From NCBI RefSeq assembly GCF_014647475.1, contig NZ_BMPG01000001.1, positions 930,001-994,000 on the forward strand: a stretch of 64,000 nt of DNA. Direction: 5' to 3'. The position numbers and the translations under genes are program-made. Below are positions 8,945-48,318 of the stretch, piece after piece; position 1 is the first letter of the stretch, and every line of letters begins with the position of its first letter. Source of the DNA: Halocalculus aciditolerans. GTDB taxonomy: Archaea > Halobacteriota > Halobacteria > Halobacteriales > Halobacteriaceae. The notes below the pieces were generated by a model, which did not search any database, had not been told where the DNA came from, and saw nothing but the letters and a program-made list of their open reading frames with translations.

Positions 8945-11211
8945 AGCTGACGGTCAAGCCCCTCAAGCAGAAGGACGCGGGACGCGGACTCGCGGCCATC
9001 GACCGCGGGGCGATGCGCGAGCTCGACCTCGAGAACGGCGACTACATCGTCATCGACGGGACCGGACAGGGTCGCGCCGTCGCGCGCGTCTGGCCGGGCT
9101 ACCCCGAAGACGAAGGCGAGGGCGTCATCCGCATCGACGGCCGCCTCCGCCAGGAAGCCGACGTCGGCATCGACGACCGCGTCACCGTCGAGAAAGCGGA
9201 CATCAAGCCCGCGACCAGCGTCACGGTCGCGCTCCCGCAGAACCTCCGCATCCGCGGGAACATCTCGCCGTACATCCGCGACAAGCTCTCCGGCCGCCCC
9301 GTCACTTCCGGACAGACCGTCCCCGTGAGCCTCGGGTTCGGCGGTCTCGGGAACATGAGCGGCCAGCAGGTCCCGCTCAAAATCGCTGAAACGGACCCCG
9401 ACGGCACGGTCGTCGTGACGGATTCGACGGAGATCAACATCTCCGAGCGGCCCGCCGAGGAGATTCAGAGCGGCGGGGACGCCGGTAGCCGCGACAGCAC
9501 GCCGAACGTCGCCTACGAGGACATCGGCGGTCTCGACCGCGAGCTCGAACAGGTGCGGGAGATGATCGAGTTGCCGATGCGTCACCCCGAGCTCTTCCAA
9601 CAGCTCGGCATCGAGCCGCCGAAGGGCGTGCTCCTCCACGGCCCGCCCGGCACGGGGAAGACGCTCATCGCGAAAGCGGTGGCGAACGAAATCGACGCGC
9701 ACTTCGAGACTATCTCCGGCCCCGAGATCATGTCGAAGTACTACGGGGAGTCCGAAGAGCAGCTGCGCGAGGTCTTCGAGAACGCCGAAGAGGAGTCGCC
9801 GGCGATCATCTTCATCGACGAGATCGACTCCATCGCGCCGAAGCGCGAGGAGACGAGCGGCGACGTCGAACGCCGCGTCGTCGCCCAGCTCCTCAGCCTC
9901 ATGGACGGCCTCGAAGAGCGCGGCGACGTGACGGTCATCGCGGCGACGAACCGCGTCGACGCCATCGACCCCGCGCTCCGCCGCGGCGGCCGGTTCGACC
10001 GCGAGATCGAAATCGGCGTCCCCGACCAGGACGGCCGGAAGGAGATTCTCCAAGTCCACACGCGCGGCATGCCGCTCTCCGAGGGCGTCGACGTCGACTA
10101 CCTCGCCGAGAACACGCACGGGTTCGTCGGCGCGGACATCGAATCCCTCGCGAAGGAGGGCGCGATGAACGCGCTCCGCCGCATCCGCCCGCAGATCGAC
10201 CTCGAATCCGACGAGATCGACGCGGAAATCCTCGAGTCCATCCACGTCACCGAATCGGACTTCAAGGAGGCGCTGAAGGGCATCGAGCCGAGCGCGATGC
10301 GCGAGGTCTTCGTCGAAGTCCCCGACGTCACGTGGAATCAGGTCGGCGGCCTCGAAGACACCAAAGAGCGGCTGCGCGAGACCATCCAGTGGCCGCTCGA
10401 CTACCCCGAGGTCTTCGAATCCATGGACCTCGAGTCCGCGAAGGGCGTCCTCATGTACGGCCCGCCGGGGACCGGGAAGACCCTGCTCGCCAAGGCCGTG
10501 GCGAACGAGGCGAACTCGAACTTCATCTCCATCAAGGGCCCCGAACTCCTCAACAAATATGTGGGAGAGTCCGAGAAGGGGGTCCGTGAAGTCTTCGAGA
10601 AGGCTCGGTCGAACGCACCCACCGTGGTGTTCTTCGACGAGATCGACTCCATCGCCGGGCAGCGCGGCCGCAACCAGAGCGACTCCGGCGTCGGCGAACG
10701 CGTCGTCAGCCAGCTCCTCACCGAACTCGACGGCATCGAGGACTTAGAGGATGTCGTCGTCATCGCGACGACGAACCGCCCGGACCTCATCGATTCGGCA
10801 CTCCTCCGCCCCGGCCGCCTCGACCGCCACGTCCACGTTCCGGTCCCCGACCGCGACGCCCGCGAAGCCATCCTCGAGGTCCACACGCGGAACAAACCGC
10901 TCGCCGACGACGTCGACCTCGCCGACGTCGCGCGGCGCACTGACGGCTTCGTCGGCGCGGACCTCGAAGCCCTCGCCCGCGAAGCCACGATGAACGCCAC
11001 CCGCGAGTTCATCAACTCCGTCGATCCCGAGGAGGCCATCGAATCCGTCGGGAACGTCCGCGTCACCGCCGACCACTTCGAGCAAGCGCTCGACGAAGTC
11101 ACCCCGAGCGTCGACGAAGACGTCCGCGAACAGTACGACGAAATCGAACAGCGCTTCGAAAAAGCCGAATCCCCCGAAGAACAGGAAGTCGCCGGCCGCG
11201 GGTTCCAGTAG
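8941..11211 (+). CDS. AAA+ ATPase of the CDC48/VCP (VAT) type
   Basis: A 756-residue full-length CDC48: an N-domain of about 190 residues with a double-psi barrel ([25 protein letters not shown]), then tandem AAA modules D1 and D2. Walker A GPPGTGKT occurs near residues 235 and 507. Walker B is [10 protein letters not shown] near 290 and [10 protein letters not shown] near 560. Arginine-finger and sensor motifs ([40 protein letters not shown]) are intact. As a hexameric unfoldase it should feed proteins to the proteasome. It is coupled to the small protein upstream, and a multi-hairpin element follows its stop. Confidence 0.97.
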
Positions 11212-11216
11212 GACCC

Positions 11217-11330
11217 TTTTAGGCGAGCGGGTCGCAACGCGACCCGCTCGATAAACATTTCCACCAAAAGCCCTGCGCGACCCCTTCGGGACCGCTTGGG
11301 CCTCACCGCGAAGCGGCGAGCGAATCCCCG
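11217..11330 (+). repeat. Multi-hairpin 3' element, copy A (after cdc48)
   Basis: A T-tract (11217-11220) lies 6 bases after the cdc48 stop. Then comes a 12-bp hairpin, CGAGCGGGTCGC (11224-11235) with GCGACCCGCTCG (11239-11250), loop AAC. It is followed by ATAAA and CCACCAAAAGCCC (11261-11273). A second hairpin is closed by GCCC (11270-11273) and GGGC (11298-11301), and a third is CTCaCCGC/GCGGcGAG (11302-11320). The same order recurs in copies B-E. The rest of the 321-base gap (11331-11532) has no gene that I can see, only short inverted words. Confidence 0.8.
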
Positions 11331-11532
11331 ACCTCCCGGGCTCTCACGAGCCGCTCGGTCGACGAACGCTGGTAGCGTCTCCCTCCCGTTCTACGAACGT
11401 TTACGAGTCATTAGGCGGCGACCCCGTGTCGTGACCTGAGAATCGCCGCGGAGCGTCTACGGTTGTGCGGCACCCGTTCCGCGAAGTAACAGTCGCCGCC
11501 TGTACGCCAGAGACCGCGAGAACGAGCGAACG

Positions 11533-34834: not shown

Positions 34835-36655
34835 ATGTACGAACACGACGTTATCGTAGTCGGCGGCGGCGGCGCGGGACTCCGCGCGGCCATCGGCGCG
34901 CACGAGGCGGGTGCGGACGTGGCTATCGTCACGAAACTCCACCCGGTTCGCTCCCACACGGGCGCGGCCGAGGGCGGTATCAACGCGGCGCTCCGCGACG
35001 GCGACGACTGGGAGCTCCACGCCTACGACACGGTCAAGGGCGGAGACTACCTCACTGACGCGCCGGCGGCGGAGACGCTCGCGCAGGACGCCCCCGAGAA
35101 CGTAGTACAGCTCGAGAACTGGGGGATGCCCTTCAGTCGCGAAGACGACGGCCGGATGAGTCAGCGGCCGTTCGGCGGGCTCTCCTTCCCACGTACCACG
35201 TACGCGGGCGCGGAGACCGGCCACCACCTCCTCCACACGCTCTACGAGCAGGTCGTCAAGCGCGGCATCACGGTCTACGACGAGTGGTACGTCACGCGTC
35301 TCGCCGTCACGGACGAGGACGACCCCGAAGACCGCAGCTGCCACGGCTGCGTCGCCTGGGACGTCCAGACCGGCGAAATAGCCGGATTCCGCGGGCGCGA
35401 CGGCGTCATCCTCGCAACCGGCGGTGACGGCCAGGTCTTCGACCACACGACGAACGCCGTCGCCAACACCGCGGACGGCGTCGCGATGGCGTACCGCGCC
35501 GGCGTCCCCATCGAGGACATGGAGTTCGTCCAGTTCCACCCGACGACGCTCCCCTCCACGGGCGTCCTCATCTCCGAAGGGACGCGCGGCGAGGGCGGTA
35601 TCCTCTACAACTCCGAGGGCGAACGCCTCATGTTCGAGTACGGATACGCCACGAACGACGGCGAACTCGCCTCCCGCGACGTCGTCTCCCGCGCCGAGCT
35701 CACCGAGATCAACAGCGGGCGCGGCGTCGACGACGAGTACGTCCACCTCGACATGCGCCACCTCGGCGAGGAGCGCATCATGGACCGCTTGGAGAACATC
35801 CTCCACCTCGCGGAGGACTTCGAGGGGGTCGACGGCCTCGAAGACCCCATGCCGGTCAAACCCGGCCACCACTACGAGATGGGTGGCATCGAGACGAACG
35901 AGAACGGCGAGACCTGCATCGACGGCCTCTACGCGATCGGCGAAGCCGCCTGCGTCTCCGTCCACGGCTCCAACCGCCTCGGGGGCAACGCGCTCCCCGA
36001 ACTCATCGTCTTCGGCGGCCGCGCCGGCCGCCACGCCGCCGGCGCGGACGTCGGCGAACCCGAGATTCCCGTCGGCAAATCCGGCGACGGCATCGAGGAG
36101 AGCGACGTCCAGTACCCCGTCGACCCCGGCAGCGCCGACGAGACGTCCGCCGTCGTCTCCGGCGACACGCCCGACGACGTCATCGACGCCGCCGTCGAGG
36201 CCGAAACCGAGCGCATCGACGGCCTCCTCGAAAAAGAGGACGGCGTCAACCACGCCGAAGTCCGTTCGAAGATTCAGAAGACGATGACGGACAACGTCAA
36301 CGTCTTCCGCGAAGAAGACGGCATCCGGGAGGCTCTCGAAGTCATCCGGGAAGCCCGCGAGGAGTACCAGGACGTCTACGTCGCCGACAAATCCCGGACG
36401 TTCAACACGGACCTCCAGCACACCATCGAGACACGGAACGTCATCGACACCGCCGAAATCATCGCCATGGGCGCGCTCGCCCGCGAGGAGTTCCGCGGCG
36501 CGCACTGGCGCAAGGAGTTCCAGGAGCGCCGCGACGACGAGTGGCTCAAGCACACCTGCGTCTCCTGGAACGACGGGAACCCCGAACTCTGGTACCGTCC
36601 CGTCCTCCTCGACGGCGAGAACAAGACCTACGAACCGAAAGAACGGTCCTACTAA
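34835..36655 (+). CDS. sdhA: Succinate dehydrogenase flavoprotein subunit A
   Basis: 606 residues. The FAD-binding motif VVGGGGAGLRAA (8-19) and covalent-FAD His41 in PVRSHTGAAEGG are present, as are GMPFSREDDGRMSQRPFGG, VQFHPTTLPSTG (substrate His) and HTCVSWNDG near the C-terminus. Full length and intact. Oxidises succinate to fumarate and passes electrons to menaquinone through SdhB. Starts 3 bases after sdhB. A multi-hairpin element follows the stop. Confidence 0.97.
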   Translation: MYEHDVIVVGGGGAGLRAAIGAHEAGADVAIVTKLHPVRSHTGAAEGGINAALRDGDDWELHAYDTVKGGDYLTDAPAAETLAQDAPENVVQLENWGMPFSREDDGRMSQRPFGGLSFPRTTYAGAETGHHLLHTLYEQVVKRGITVYDEWYVTRLAVTDEDDPEDRSCHGCVAWDVQTGEIAGFRGRDGVILATGGDGQVFDHTTNAVANTADGVAMAYRAGVPIEDMEFVQFHPTTLPSTGVLISEGTRGEGGILYNSEGERLMFEYGYATNDGELASRDVVSRAELTEINSGRGVDDEYVHLDMRHLGEERIMDRLENILHLAEDFEGVDGLEDPMPVKPGHHYEMGGIETNENGETCIDGLYAIGEAACVSVHGSNRLGGNALPELIVFGGRAGRHAAGADVGEPEIPVGKSGDGIEESDVQYPVDPGSADETSAVVSGDTPDDVIDAAVEAETERIDGLLEKEDGVNHAEVRSKIQKTMTDNVNVFREEDGIREALEVIREAREEYQDVYVADKSRTFNTDLQHTIETRNVIDTAEIIAMGALAREEFRGAHWRKEFQERRDDEWLKHTCVSWNDGNPELWYRPVLLDGENKTYEPKERSY

Positions 36656-36661
36656 CGCACG

Positions 36662-36796
36662 TTTTTATCGCGAGCGCCCGGCGATGCCGGGCGCTCGATA
36701 AAGACCTGCACTAAAAGCTCGGCGCGCTCCCGTCGCGCCCATTCGGGCGCGGTGGTCGCGCTTGAGCCTCGCGCGGAGCGCGAGTGAACCGCTCGG
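36662..36796 (+). repeat. Multi-hairpin 3' element, copy B (after sdhA)
   Basis: T-tract 36662-36666, 6 bases after the sdhA stop. Hairpin 1 is CGAGCGCCCGGC (36671-36682)/GCCGGGCGCTCG (36686-36697), loop GAT; then ATAAAG and CTGCACTAAAAGCTC (36706-36720). Hairpin 2 is closed by GCTC (36717-36720) and GAGC (36764-36767), where the other copies have GCCC/GGGC. Hairpin 3 is CTCGCGC/GCGCGAG (36768-36784), followed by TGAACCGCTCGG. Hairpin 1 arms are identical to copy E. Confidence 0.82.
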
Positions 36797-41992: not shown

Positions 41993-43027
41993 ATGAAGGA
42001 TAGCATACTGGACGCAATCGGCACGCCGCTGGTCCGCGTCGCCTCCCCCGAAGGCGCGACGGTCGCGGCGAAGGTGGAATCCTTCAACCCCGGTGGGTCC
42101 GCGAAAGACCGCCCCGCGCGAGCGATGGTCGAAGCCGCCGAGCGCGCCGGCGACATCGAACCCGGCGACCGCCTCGTCGAAGCGACGAGCGGGAACACGG
42201 GGATCGGCCTCGCCGTCGTCGCCGCCGCCCGCGGCTACGACCTCACCATCGTCATGCCCGCCTCGATGTCCGAAGAACGCCGCCGCCTCCTCCGCGCGTA
42301 CGGTGCGGACCTCGAACTCGTCGAGGGCGAGATGCAGACCGCCAACGCTCGCGCCGACCAGATCGCCGCGGAGGCCGACGCCTTCCTCATCGGCCAGTTC
42401 AAGAACCCCGCGAACCCGCGTTCGCACTACGAGACCACCGCCGAGGAAATCCTCGACCAGGTCGACGGCCGCGAAATTGACGCCTTCGTCGCCGGCGTCG
42501 GAACCGGCGGCACCATCACCGGCACCGCCACCCGCCTCCTCGAGGAGTTCCCCGACATGGAGGTCGTCGCCGTCGAACCCACCGAGAACGCCGTCCTCTC
42601 CACCGGCAAATCCGGGAACGACCGGTTCCAGGGGATGGGCCCCGGCTTCGTCTCCGACATCCTCGACGTCGACCTCATCGACACCATCGAAACCGTCGAC
42701 ATCGACACCGCCGAAGCCGAATGCCGCCGCCTCGCCCGCGACGAAGGCATCCTCGTCGGCCAGTCCTCCGGCGCTGCCAGCATCGTCGCCCGCCGCGTCG
42801 CCGAACGCATCGCCCAACCCGAACTCAACTGCCCCGACGTCGAACTCCCCGAAATGTTCGACAACCCCGGCGACCCCCCCGAACTCCGCTCCGACGGCGG
42901 CCGCGACCTCGACGACCACCGACCATCCTCCGACGGCGGCCCCGACGGCTACGACGACTGCCCCCTCGTCGTCACCGTCTTCCCCGACTCCGGCGAACGC
43001 TACCTCACCGCCGGGACCTTCGACTGA
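41993..43027 (+). CDS. cysK: PLP-dependent cysteine synthase
   Basis: 344 residues. PLP lysine K39 in NPGGSAKDRPA, the Asn loop EATSGNTGIGLA, and the phosphate-binding GVGTGGTITGTA are intact; GQSSGAAS is near the C-terminus. It makes cysteine from O-acetylserine or O-phosphoserine and sulfide. The last 40 residues are Asp/Gly-rich with a hydrophobic end (CPLVVTVFPDSGERYLTAGTF), longer than in bacteria. Element C follows the stop. Confidence 0.92.
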   Translation: MKDSILDAIGTPLVRVASPEGATVAAKVESFNPGGSAKDRPARAMVEAAERAGDIEPGDRLVEATSGNTGIGLAVVAAARGYDLTIVMPASMSEERRRLLRAYGADLELVEGEMQTANARADQIAAEADAFLIGQFKNPANPRSHYETTAEEILDQVDGREIDAFVAGVGTGGTITGTATRLLEEFPDMEVVAVEPTENAVLSTGKSGNDRFQGMGPGFVSDILDVDLIDTIETVDIDTAEAECRRLARDEGILVGQSSGAASIVARRVAERIAQPELNCPDVELPEMFDNPGDPPELRSDGGRDLDDHRPSSDGGPDGYDDCPLVVTVFPDSGERYLTAGTFD

Positions 43028-43029
43028 AC

Positions 43030-43306
43030 TTTTCTATTGTCGTTCGAAAGGCGCTTCGCGCCTTTCGTGATGACGAGACGGCAGCGCCGTCTCGAACCAC
43101 GAGCGCTGGCGGAGCCAGCGCTCGATAAAAAGCTTCACCAAAACCCTCCTCGCTCCCAGGGTCGGAGCAAAGCTCCTCCTTGCCCGCACTCGCTCCGCTC
43201 GCGCGGACTCCGGTCGCTCGTCGGCCTCGCGCTCGCTGGCTCGCGGCTTCGCCGCTCGCCTATTCCGTCGCGCTTCGCGCGACGTGCCGCTCGCGCGAGT
43301 GAACGG
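43030..43306 (+). repeat. Multi-hairpin 3' element, copy C (after cysK)
   Basis: T-tract 43030-43033 after the cysK stop. Two extra hairpins come first: CGAAAGGCGC/GCGCCTTTCG (43045-43067) and CGAGACGGC/GCCGTCTCG (43074-43094). Then hairpin 1: CGAGCGCTGGC (43100-43110)/GCCAGCGCTCG (43114-43124), loop GGA, followed by ATAAAAA and CTTCACCAAAA. Hairpin 2 is long and holds the 60-base arm shared with copy D. It ends GCGCGAGTGAACGG (43293-43306). Confidence 0.78.
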
Positions 43307-43503
43307 CGACCCTTCCGGGTTCTTCGAACCACTCGGGTCACCGATGCCGGACGGATATCCCTCCAACTCCGGTTAGCATTCGCCGCCCGAGCGGTCCGTT
43401 AGAACCCGATTCACTCGCCGTAGGCGAGGCCCAAGCGCGACCAGAGTCCGCGCGAGCGGAGCGAGTGCGGGCAAGGAGGAGCTTTGCTCCGACCCTGGGA
43501 GCG
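43151..43503. repeat. 60-base perfect inverted repeat between cysK and the convergent gene
   Basis: 43151-43210 is the exact reverse complement of 43444-43503, base for base, with 233 bases between. Each arm lies inside one multi-hairpin element (C and D), so the two elements face each other. The internal hairpin GGTCGGAGCAAAGCTCCTCC is found in both arms. Confidence 0.9.
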
Positions 43504-43567
43504 CGCAGGGCTTTTAGTGAAGGTTTTTATCGAGCATGGCGCAGCGCGCCATGCTCGCAATAAAAAA
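43408..43567 (-). repeat. Multi-hairpin 3' element, copy D (after the gene ending at 43570)
   Basis: Read on the minus strand: T-tract (43562-43567), hairpin 1 of 12 bp CGAGCATGGCGC/GCGCCATGCTCG (43531-43557), then ATAAAAACCTTCACTAAAAGCCC. Hairpin 2 is closed by GCCC/GGGC (43508-43511 with 43429-43432) and extended by the 60-base arm. Hairpin 3 is CTCGCC/GGCGAG (43414-43428), then TGAATC. The region 43307-43407 between C and D holds no gene that I can support. Confidence 0.82.
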
Positions 43568-43569
43568 GT

Positions 43570-44022
43570 TCATGCGAAGAATTCGCCTTTCGTCACTCTG
43601 ACGACGACGGATTCGTCGTAGTCGGCGCGTTCGTAGGTTCCTTCTTGGGCGTCGCCGCGGAGGACGAAAGTCGGGTCGACGAGGCGGTCGTCGTCGACGC
43701 CGTAGACTTTGAGGCGGTTGACGGGTTCGTCGGGGTCGAGGTCGCCGTCGCGGATCTGGCGGGCGAGGGGGCGAGAGAGCCATTCGGTGGTGCTGACGGA
43801 CGGCTCGCGGATGATGGCGTCGCGGGTGAGGCGGGCGAGGTACCAGTTGAGGTCGTTGAGGAGGGTGACGGCGTTCCCGAGGCTGTTCGTCCGTAGCTGG
43901 AGGGTGTTCGTCCAGGGTTCGGAGACGTCGTAGGTGGCGAGGGCGCGGCGCGCGGTCTCGTAGGAGTAGATGTCGATGCGGAGGTCGACGTCCTCCTTGC
44001 CGAGGAGGCAGACGCGAGTCAC
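43570..44022 (-). CDS. Conserved haloarchaeal protein (possibly DUF5804), coupled to thiI
   Basis: 150 residues, soluble, mixed alpha/beta: TRVCLLGKEDVDLRIDIYSY, then SLGNAVTLLNDLNWYLARLTRDAI, and the C-terminal PTFVLRGDAQEGTYERADYDESVVV. No catalytic motif seen. GTG start overlaps the thiI stop by four bases (GTGA), so it is probably co-translated and may serve in the same tRNA modification route. The DUF number is from memory. Element D follows. Confidence 0.78.
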   Translation of the reverse strand: MTRVCLLGKEDVDLRIDIYSYETARRALATYDVSEPWTNTLQLRTNSLGNAVTLLNDLNWYLARLTRDAIIREPSVSTTEWLSRPLARQIRDGDLDPDEPVNRLKVYGVDDDRLVDPTFVLRGDAQEGTYERADYDESVVVRVTKGEFFA

Positions 44023-46816: not shown

Positions 46817-46980
46817 ACCGTAGCTCCATGACCGCAGATGAATCCCGACGGGAAGGAGTGACGCAGGACTCTTCCGGTAACCTCCCACCCTGTACTGAAC
46901 GGTGAGAATTTCCTATCGCAGGTGAAACGAACGAGCGTTGAGCGTCCGCGAGCGAGCGGCTCGAAGAGCCCGAGCGGAGC

Positions 46981-47091
46981 GGTTCACTCGCGCGATAGCG
47001 CGAGGCCCAAGCGACCCCAGAGGGGTCGCGCAGGGCTTTTGGTGGAGCTTTTTATCGAGCGCCCGGCGACGCCGGGCGCTCGCAATAAAAA
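46981..47091 (-). repeat. Multi-hairpin 3' element, copy E (after the S-adenosylmethionine synthetase gene)
   Basis: Read on the minus strand: T-tract (47087-47091), hairpin 1 of 12 bp CGAGCGCCCGGC/GCCGGGCGCTCG (47056-47082), ATAAAAAGCTCCACCAAAAGCCC, hairpin 2 GCGACCCC/GGGGTCGC closed by GCCC/GGGC, and hairpin 3 CTCGCGC/GCGCGAG (46987-47004). Further inverted words (GAGCGAGCGGCTCG region) extend to about 46930. Same order and orientation relative to the gene as the other copies. Confidence 0.84.
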
Positions 47092-47097
47092 GGTCCG

Positions 47098-48318
47098 TTA
47101 GAAGGTAGAGAGTTCGCCGTCGATGACGCGTTGGGTGATGTCGGTGACGTTGGCGAGTTCGTCGTCGACGATGGCTTGGATGTCGGCTTCGACGTCGGCG
47201 ATGGCGGTGTCGTCGTCGGTGACGACGTGGACGTCGGCGACGTGGGGTTCGTCGATGGGGCGGCCGATCTGGGAGAGGAGGCGGACGCGGAGGTCGCGGA
47301 TTCCCTCTACTTCGTCGACGACGGAGTGCGCGATTTCGGTGGAGAGGAGGTTGTAGATCTTCCCGATGTGGTTGACGGGGTTCTTTCCACTGGTTGCTTC
47401 CATGCTCATGGAGCGGTTGGGGGTGATGAGGCCGTTGGCGCGGTTTCCTCTTCCTACTGAGCCGTCGTCGCCCTGTTCGGCGCTGGTGCCGGTGGTGGTG
47501 AGGTAGATGGAGCCGTCTTCGTAGTCGTCGGCGGTGTTGACGTGGACGGAGACGTCGCGCGTGGTGTATTCGTCGGCGAGGTCGAGGACGGCGGACTGGA
47601 TGTCGCCGACGAGTGCTTCGTAGTCGTCGAGGCCGTCGATGTAGGCGTCGACGGCGGCGGCGGCGACGGTGAGGTCGATCTGGTCGCCTTCGCGTTTCCC
47701 CATGACTTTGACGTCCTGACCGATGCCGGGGTGGTCGTCGTGGAACGCGCGGTTGAGGTAGCGTTCGGTTTCGAGGACGAGCGTCTCGGTTTCGGTGAGG
47801 GGCGCGTGGCCGACGCCGAAGGAGGTGTCGTTCGCCATCGGGACCTGCTTGCCGTCCTCGCCGAAGACGTCTTGGAGGTCGCCGGATCCTTCGCCGAGTT
47901 TCACGTCGACGATGACGTCCGTTTCGAGGTCGAGGTCGGGGAAGTGCTCGCGGAGGTAGTCGCGCGCGGCTTCGAGCGCGATGGAGTCCACGGGGATGTG
48001 GTGTTCGACGCCGTCGTCGTCGACGTAGTACTTCGTCGCGCGGCCGACGATGAGGATGTAGATGGGTTCGACGACTTCGCCGCCGCCGTAGGCCGGCGCG
48101 GCGTTCCCGGCGACGAGCTGCGTCTCGTCCGTGTTGTAGTGGAGGACTTTCCCGACGCGGTCGAGGTAGGTCTGGGCGAGCTCTCGGGAGACGCGCTCGG
48201 CGATGCCGTCACAGATGGAGTCGGGGTGGCCGATGCCCTTTCGCTCGACGATTTCGACGGCCTCGTCCTCGACCGCGCCGCGGTCGAGGGTCTGCACGCG
48301 GATGTTCCGCTCAGTCAT
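47098..48318 (-). CDS. Archaeal-type S-adenosylmethionine synthetase
   Basis: 406 residues, the divergent archaeal methionine adenosyltransferase. [17 protein letters not shown] and [16 protein letters not shown] at the start, [14 protein letters not shown] and the ATP site [29 protein letters not shown] toward the C-terminus are diagnostic. Makes AdoMet from ATP and methionine. Length is typical (about 400). I checked the upstream region by eye and saw no riboswitch. Element E follows the stop. Confidence 0.96.

Follow-up and report, generated by a model that had tools for sequence, protein, structure and literature searches.

Dispersed hairpin-array elements at gene ends of salt-loving archaea: candidate two-way transcription terminators or insulators

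The window analysed here, a stretch of 64,000 nucleotides from Halocalculus aciditolerans, carries five copies of an element that belongs to a large dispersed family, with about 30-40 copies in its own genome according to covariance-model searches. Each own-genome copy folds as a linear array of stem-loops, and most copies start directly behind a gene. The family is widespread in salt-loving archaea and apparently undescribed: no description was found in the open-access literature searched. Judging from sequence and predicted folding, we lean, with moderate confidence, towards reading the copies as dispersed elements of transcript boundaries that most probably act as two-way terminators or insulators of transcription.

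Results

Extent of the family

A sequence-only reading of the window had proposed five elements (A to E) sharing one order of motifs, to be checked by a covariance model in this and other haloarchaeal genomes and by comparison with Rfam. All five are present in the sequence with that order, and many further copies were recovered. A model built from five own-genome copies yields 41 matches in this genome at an E-value of 0.01 (a few of these may come from the opposite strand of one palindromic copy), and a second model yields 30 at 1e-4, with 31 candidates scored. Since only 15-95 candidates were scored per genome, genome-wide counts are lower bounds. In the own genome the best match has an E-value of 8e-28, and reversed-pattern controls gave no hits there; the family is far beyond chance.

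The five-copy model also finds the element in 21 of 23 other genomes of the same taxonomic family, with 2-23 matches each; three members with copies are Halarchaeum species, as named by contig. With a refined model 168 of the 243 genomes of the order are matched, representing 52 of 77 genera. A sample of 120 genomes from the phylum contained ten with matches, all from this order, and none outside it. No copy was detected in one genome (G014) of genus g5, which is otherwise rich in the element, or in any sampled g11 genome; we conclude that the element can be lost or replaced. Comparison with Rfam 15 gave no match at the gathering score over the window copies, and none at an E-value of 0.1 for five other copies.

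Structure of the element

The T-tract behind the gene (T4-6) is itself the 5' arm of the first stem-loop (SL1), as it pairs with the downstream ATAAA(AA), and this makes the hairpin about 20 bp long. The earlier description of an 11-12 bp hairpin with the T-tract as a separate leader therefore has to be given up. In other copies the base of SL1 reads TTTTGC/GCAAAA or TTTTAC/GTAAAA. Nearly all copies start with a tract of T3-6, some with only T3-T4. Past the A-tract, the linker pairs with the three nucleotides that follow the stop codon and precede the T-tract (GTA-TAC, CGA-TCG, GCA-TGC, CCA-TGG and GGA-TCC are seen), and the two sites covary: in a shuffle test 2.09 pairs of 3 form at the matched offset against 1.41 after shuffling (z about 8). 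The linker is followed by a nearly invariant AAAA(A), by SL2, by SL3 with GTGAA and, in 60 of 69 copies, by a fourth stem-loop (SL4). Because this further stem-loop follows GTGAA, the unit measures about 160-180 bp.

Two other folds were rejected. A three-way junction closed by TTCAC/GTGAA fits elements C and D, but is mismatched in A, B, E and many relatives, and the linear folding contradicts it as well. A kink-turn in SL2 would have its bulge on the wrong side, and we therefore claim only a tandem G.A on the opposite strand.

Table 1. Elements and nested insert in the window, with the evidence for each
Feature	Position	Strand	Evidence
Element A, behind cdc48	11214..11370	+	sequence; covariance-model hit 11214-11324, 103 bits
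Element B, behind sdhA	36656..36788	+	sequence; covariance-model hit 36661-36788, 93.6 bits
Element C, behind cysK-family gene	43028..43350	+	sequence; motif match 43120-43143
Nested two-hairpin insert TCGTTCGAAAG...CTTTCGTGATGACGA...TCGAACCA	43040..43099	+	about 60 bp, between T-tract and SL1 of element C
Element D, behind gene ending 43570 (partner of thiI)	43375..43569	-	sequence; covariance-model hit 43410-43567, 93.1 bits
Element E, behind AdoMet synthetase gene	46940..47097	-	sequence; covariance-model hit 46983-47092, 125.3 bits

As had been read from the letters, each window copy lies in sense with its gene (Table 1). Profile searches confirm CDC48, SdhA, the cysteine synthase family and methionine adenosyltransferase as neighbours; the gene that ends at 43570 has ThiI as its upstream partner. 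These genes had also been called highly used; their names stand, whereas high expression is not known for all of them and they are better described as mainly housekeeping genes.

The cdc48 stop ends at 11211, and SL1 of element A reaches from the T-tract at 11217 to ATAAA at 11255; then come the linker CCACCAAAA, SL2, SL3 with the end GCGAA at 11324, and SL4 (about 11325-11370). Behind the sdhA stop (ending at 36655) the near-stop triplet GCA pairs with the linker TGC, and SL4 of element B is degenerate or replaced by another hairpin. The stop before element C ends at 43027 and its T-tract occupies 43030-43033. As the nested insert separates this tract from hairpin 1, SL1 starts only at 43100 (ending at 43124); SL2 and SL3 are expanded, and GTGAA near 43304 is followed by an SL4-like hairpin. 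Element D has a double-hairpin insert in SL2 and its SL4 at about 43375-43409. For element E (stop ending at 47098) the near-stop GGA pairs with the linker TCC, and SL4 lies at about 46940-46982.

An insert similar to the nested one of element C is found inside a further copy (L102 in G023), and its core 15-mer is present in 11 of 31 related genomes. It resembles SMR repeats, which target palindromes. In several copies SL2 is enlarged by the other, double-hairpin insert (TCGGAGC...GCTCCTCCTTGCCCGC...GCGCGGACT): at about 43430-43500 in D, at 43150-43215 in C, and also in L048 and L055.

Covariation between the arms

That differing arms with kept pairing reflect a conserved structure, as the sequence-only reading argued, is strongly supported. 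Covariation was counted over 68 copies in a model-fitted alignment (A7) biased towards the model's structure. Pairing holds in 92.8% of the cells, and both partners vary in 34 of 37 pairs. The alignment scores 0.518 for covariation and its shuffles 0.137, and sliding the partners by 1-3 columns lowers pairing to 40-53%. The structure-based fit and the relatedness of the copies push these figures upward, but the controls lie far below them. MAFFT alignments of the raw copies (A1, A3, A6) misplace SL1. Similar changes are seen behind presumed orthologous TBP genes of three Halarchaeum genomes (Pfam confirms one of the three genes), where SL1 and the triplet-linker pair differ and are still paired.

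Genomic placement

Using gene calls from our own codon model, 56 of 69 copies start 1-13 nt past the sense 3' end of a gene, in agreement with the role at gene 3' ends suggested earlier. Of these, 52 follow stop codons and four directly follow tRNA-Ser, tRNA-Pro and two RNase P RNAs. One further copy follows tRNA-Val, and element C is displaced from its gene end only by its insert. Placement after both stop codons and the ends of tRNA or RNase P RNA favours a transcript-boundary element over a purely mRNA feature. The genes upstream of copies include those for TBP, a TFIIS-type zinc ribbon protein, EF-1 beta, FtsZ, SRP54, aRF1, IlvE and 2-oxoacid oxidoreductase.

A minority of copies lies 44-81 bp upstream of a divergent gene. 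Orthologous copies in three Halarchaeum genomes (L068, L070 and L024) are located 53 bp upstream of a divergent gene that we take to be rps24e, and there the SL1 arms are replaced yet paired.

Within the window, T4 or longer occurs within 25 nt of 7 of 61 gene ends, and five of these seven are the elements. Convergent genes may each bear their own copy, facing each other; in convergent pairs the copies are only modestly over-represented (36 of 53, compared with about half of the spaced window gene ends). Many gene ends do without the element, including that of sdhA in one genus.

Strand asymmetry

In 57 of 69 copies the more stable fold is that of the strand opposite to the gene; the mean difference is 6.3 kcal/mol. 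This preference is found in 15 of 17 genomes, in SL1 and SL2+3 separately, and with RNA or DNA parameters. Where the sense strand has C.C and T.T mismatches, the opposite strand has the purine-purine mismatches G.G and A.A, and the commonest SL2 context, TC/TC, reads GA/GA there (29 copies). G.U wobbles are of the sense type in 10 cases and of the opposite-strand type in 17, both small counts.

Read on the opposite strand, SL4, SL3 and SL2 run at once into T4-5 (C-TTTT(T) after SL2), and about 8 nt further comes the T-run complementary to the SL1 A-tract. A GC-rich hairpin directly followed by a T-run, the mark of a hairpin terminator, is thus present on this strand. The coding strand has the T-run of a T-stretch terminator just downstream of the gene (T3-6, 1-13 nt past stops).

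Persistence and exchange of copies

Behind the AdoMet synthetase gene the element occurs in three genera, and it is absent, reduced or decayed where a co-directional thiI closely follows. For intact copies at this locus the next called gene is never closer than 318 nt, and an operonic thiI 38-63 nt downstream goes with absence of the element; this spacing effect is partly trivial because the element itself occupies about 170 bp. Four genera have the element at the sdhA locus; genus g5 lacks it there, and its sdhA is often faced by a convergent gene that ends nearby.

Some copies are most like their orthologs and others most like paralogs in the same genome; for the G022 copy behind AdoMet synthetase the best matches are paralogs. 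The same SL2 is seen at unrelated loci in two genera. At one orthologous locus, two copies (G003 L076 and G015 L016) have a near-identical SL1 and a wholly different SL2 and SL3. Direct repeats flank two copies, with lengths of 53 bp (92%) at L036:1441-1648 and 28 bp (93%) at L075:1458-1648. The repeats consist of part of a neighbouring gene end, and it looks as though a long duplication had brought the copy in. The ortholog-like and paralog-like copies and the direct repeats together indicate that some copies stay in place while others are exchanged or newly gained.

Discussion

The more stable opposite strand and the SL2 that runs into T4-5 there are the reasons why we favour a two-way terminator or insulator. 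End placement on mRNA and stable RNA, T-tracts on both strands and facing convergent copies all fit such a role. The covariation of the stems and of the near-stop triplet with the linker, the large share of elements among window gene ends with T4 or longer, and the wide spacing behind intact AdoMet synthetase copies also speak for it. Outgoing transcription would halt at the first T-tract. A polymerase coming from downstream would make SL4, SL3 and SL2, better folded on that strand, and would halt at two T-tracts before it enters the gene or its promoter; we infer here that the opposite-strand hairpins act on the incoming polymerase. The arms might diverge freely because only pairing, mismatch positions and the T and A tracts would matter, and copies may spread and be refreshed through exchange between loci. 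In Haloferax volcanii a T5C stretch gives 95% termination in vivo (PMC7237163), which by analogy supports the T-tract step of the model. Against the model it might be argued that the sense T-tract alone could suffice, which leaves SL2-SL4 unexplained. Copies with only T3-T4, the many gene ends that lack an element and the modest convergent excess count against it as well. A more tentative version, possible but on the doubtful side, is that the functional molecule is the opposite-strand RNA. Its G.A-rich hairpin array, perhaps protein-bound, would stop the incoming polymerase and shield housekeeping genes, and the elements would form an insulator class copied between loci.

The main rival is a mobile repeat of REP or SMR type that need serve no host function: an enzyme acting in trans would recognise its hairpins on one DNA strand, and insertion would be targeted to T-tract gene ends. 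We regard this as unlikely, even though it would suit a dispersed multi-copy family with one SL2 shared by unrelated loci of two genera, the paralog-like G022 copy and the two copies between direct repeats. The single-strand preference, which holds with DNA parameters too, and the C(GNA)G loops on that strand resemble IS200/IS605-type substrates, and palindromic mobile repeats (PATE and SMR) have been described in haloarchaea, in Haloquadratum (PMC3119063). However, a mobile repeat does not readily explain the one orientation and the narrow placement of 56 of 69 copies, nor the persistence behind AdoMet synthetase in three genera, and a BLAST search, weak on arms so variable, found no match in viral contigs, plasmids or phages. 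Both readings are compatible if a repeat has been adopted as terminator.

To a structured 3' UTR that protects or processes the sense mRNA we give little probability. Its sense orientation, site right after stop codons and stable hairpins would be expected, but copies behind tRNAs and RNase P RNA would not, nor would the several copies 44-81 bp upstream of divergent genes, a T-tract that comes before the structure or an opposite strand that folds better. Of the earlier reading as an mRNA 3' element or terminator, structure conservation and the gene-end role thus stand, whereas a purely mRNA element is improbable. It is very unlikely that pairing is kept by mutation alone, through template switching or gene conversion that perfects palindromes and so creates covariation without selection on the fold. 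Arms that are often perfectly complementary and interchangeable in sequence would agree with this, as would the wholesale difference in SL2 and SL3 beside a near-identical SL1 at one locus; fixed, strand-polarised mismatches (C.C beside the T-tract, TC/TC in SL2) nevertheless persist, and the copies keep their tracts, order and position.

Descriptions of archaeal termination centre on a T-stretch and factors and mostly treat structure as dispensable. If the two-way reading is correct, the elements would add to this picture a class of structured terminators or insulators, widespread in one archaeal order and placed where housekeeping genes end. Their natural variants would be ready material on how archaeal RNA polymerase and aCPSF1 stop, and would also bear on how convergent genes stay apart. 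If the elements are mobile instead, they would constitute a gene-end-targeting archaeal repeat family, also apparently undescribed.

Comparison with known systems

REP/BIME elements (RAYT transposases) are likewise extragenic, dispersed and palindromic with fixed mismatches, whereas the present element has about four hairpins in 160-180 bp and starts at the stop codon in one orientation. A mobile hairpin of REP type had been offered as an alternative by the sequence-only reading; the shared SL2, paralog likeness and direct repeats speak for it, but REPs are palindromes of 20-40 bp tagged GTAG or CGTC, and no constant tag occurs among the copies listed. The PATE and SMR repeats of Haloquadratum are also short, non-coding and palindromic, and SMR-like inserts are found inside our elements. 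PATEs carry IS605-type ends, while SMRs are about 110 bp long with inverted termini and target other mobile elements (PMC3119063). The present copies differ in that they covary and sit at gene 3' ends rather than in mobile-element palindromes, and the candidate termini TTCAC/GTGAA pair in only some of them.

Haloarchaeal T-stretch terminators (such as T5C) share with the element the T4-6 within about 10 nt of the stop, and the T-runs on the opposite strand are a further likeness. The known signal needs no structure (PMC7237163), whereas here the tract is an arm of a stem of about 20 bp in a conserved array of four stem-loops. Bacterial intrinsic (two-way) terminators share the GC-rich hairpin that runs directly into T4-5, as seen on the opposite strand. 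The element, by contrast, is archaeal; its four hairpins and common linkers recur in a dispersed repeat family, and its sense T-tract comes before the hairpins.
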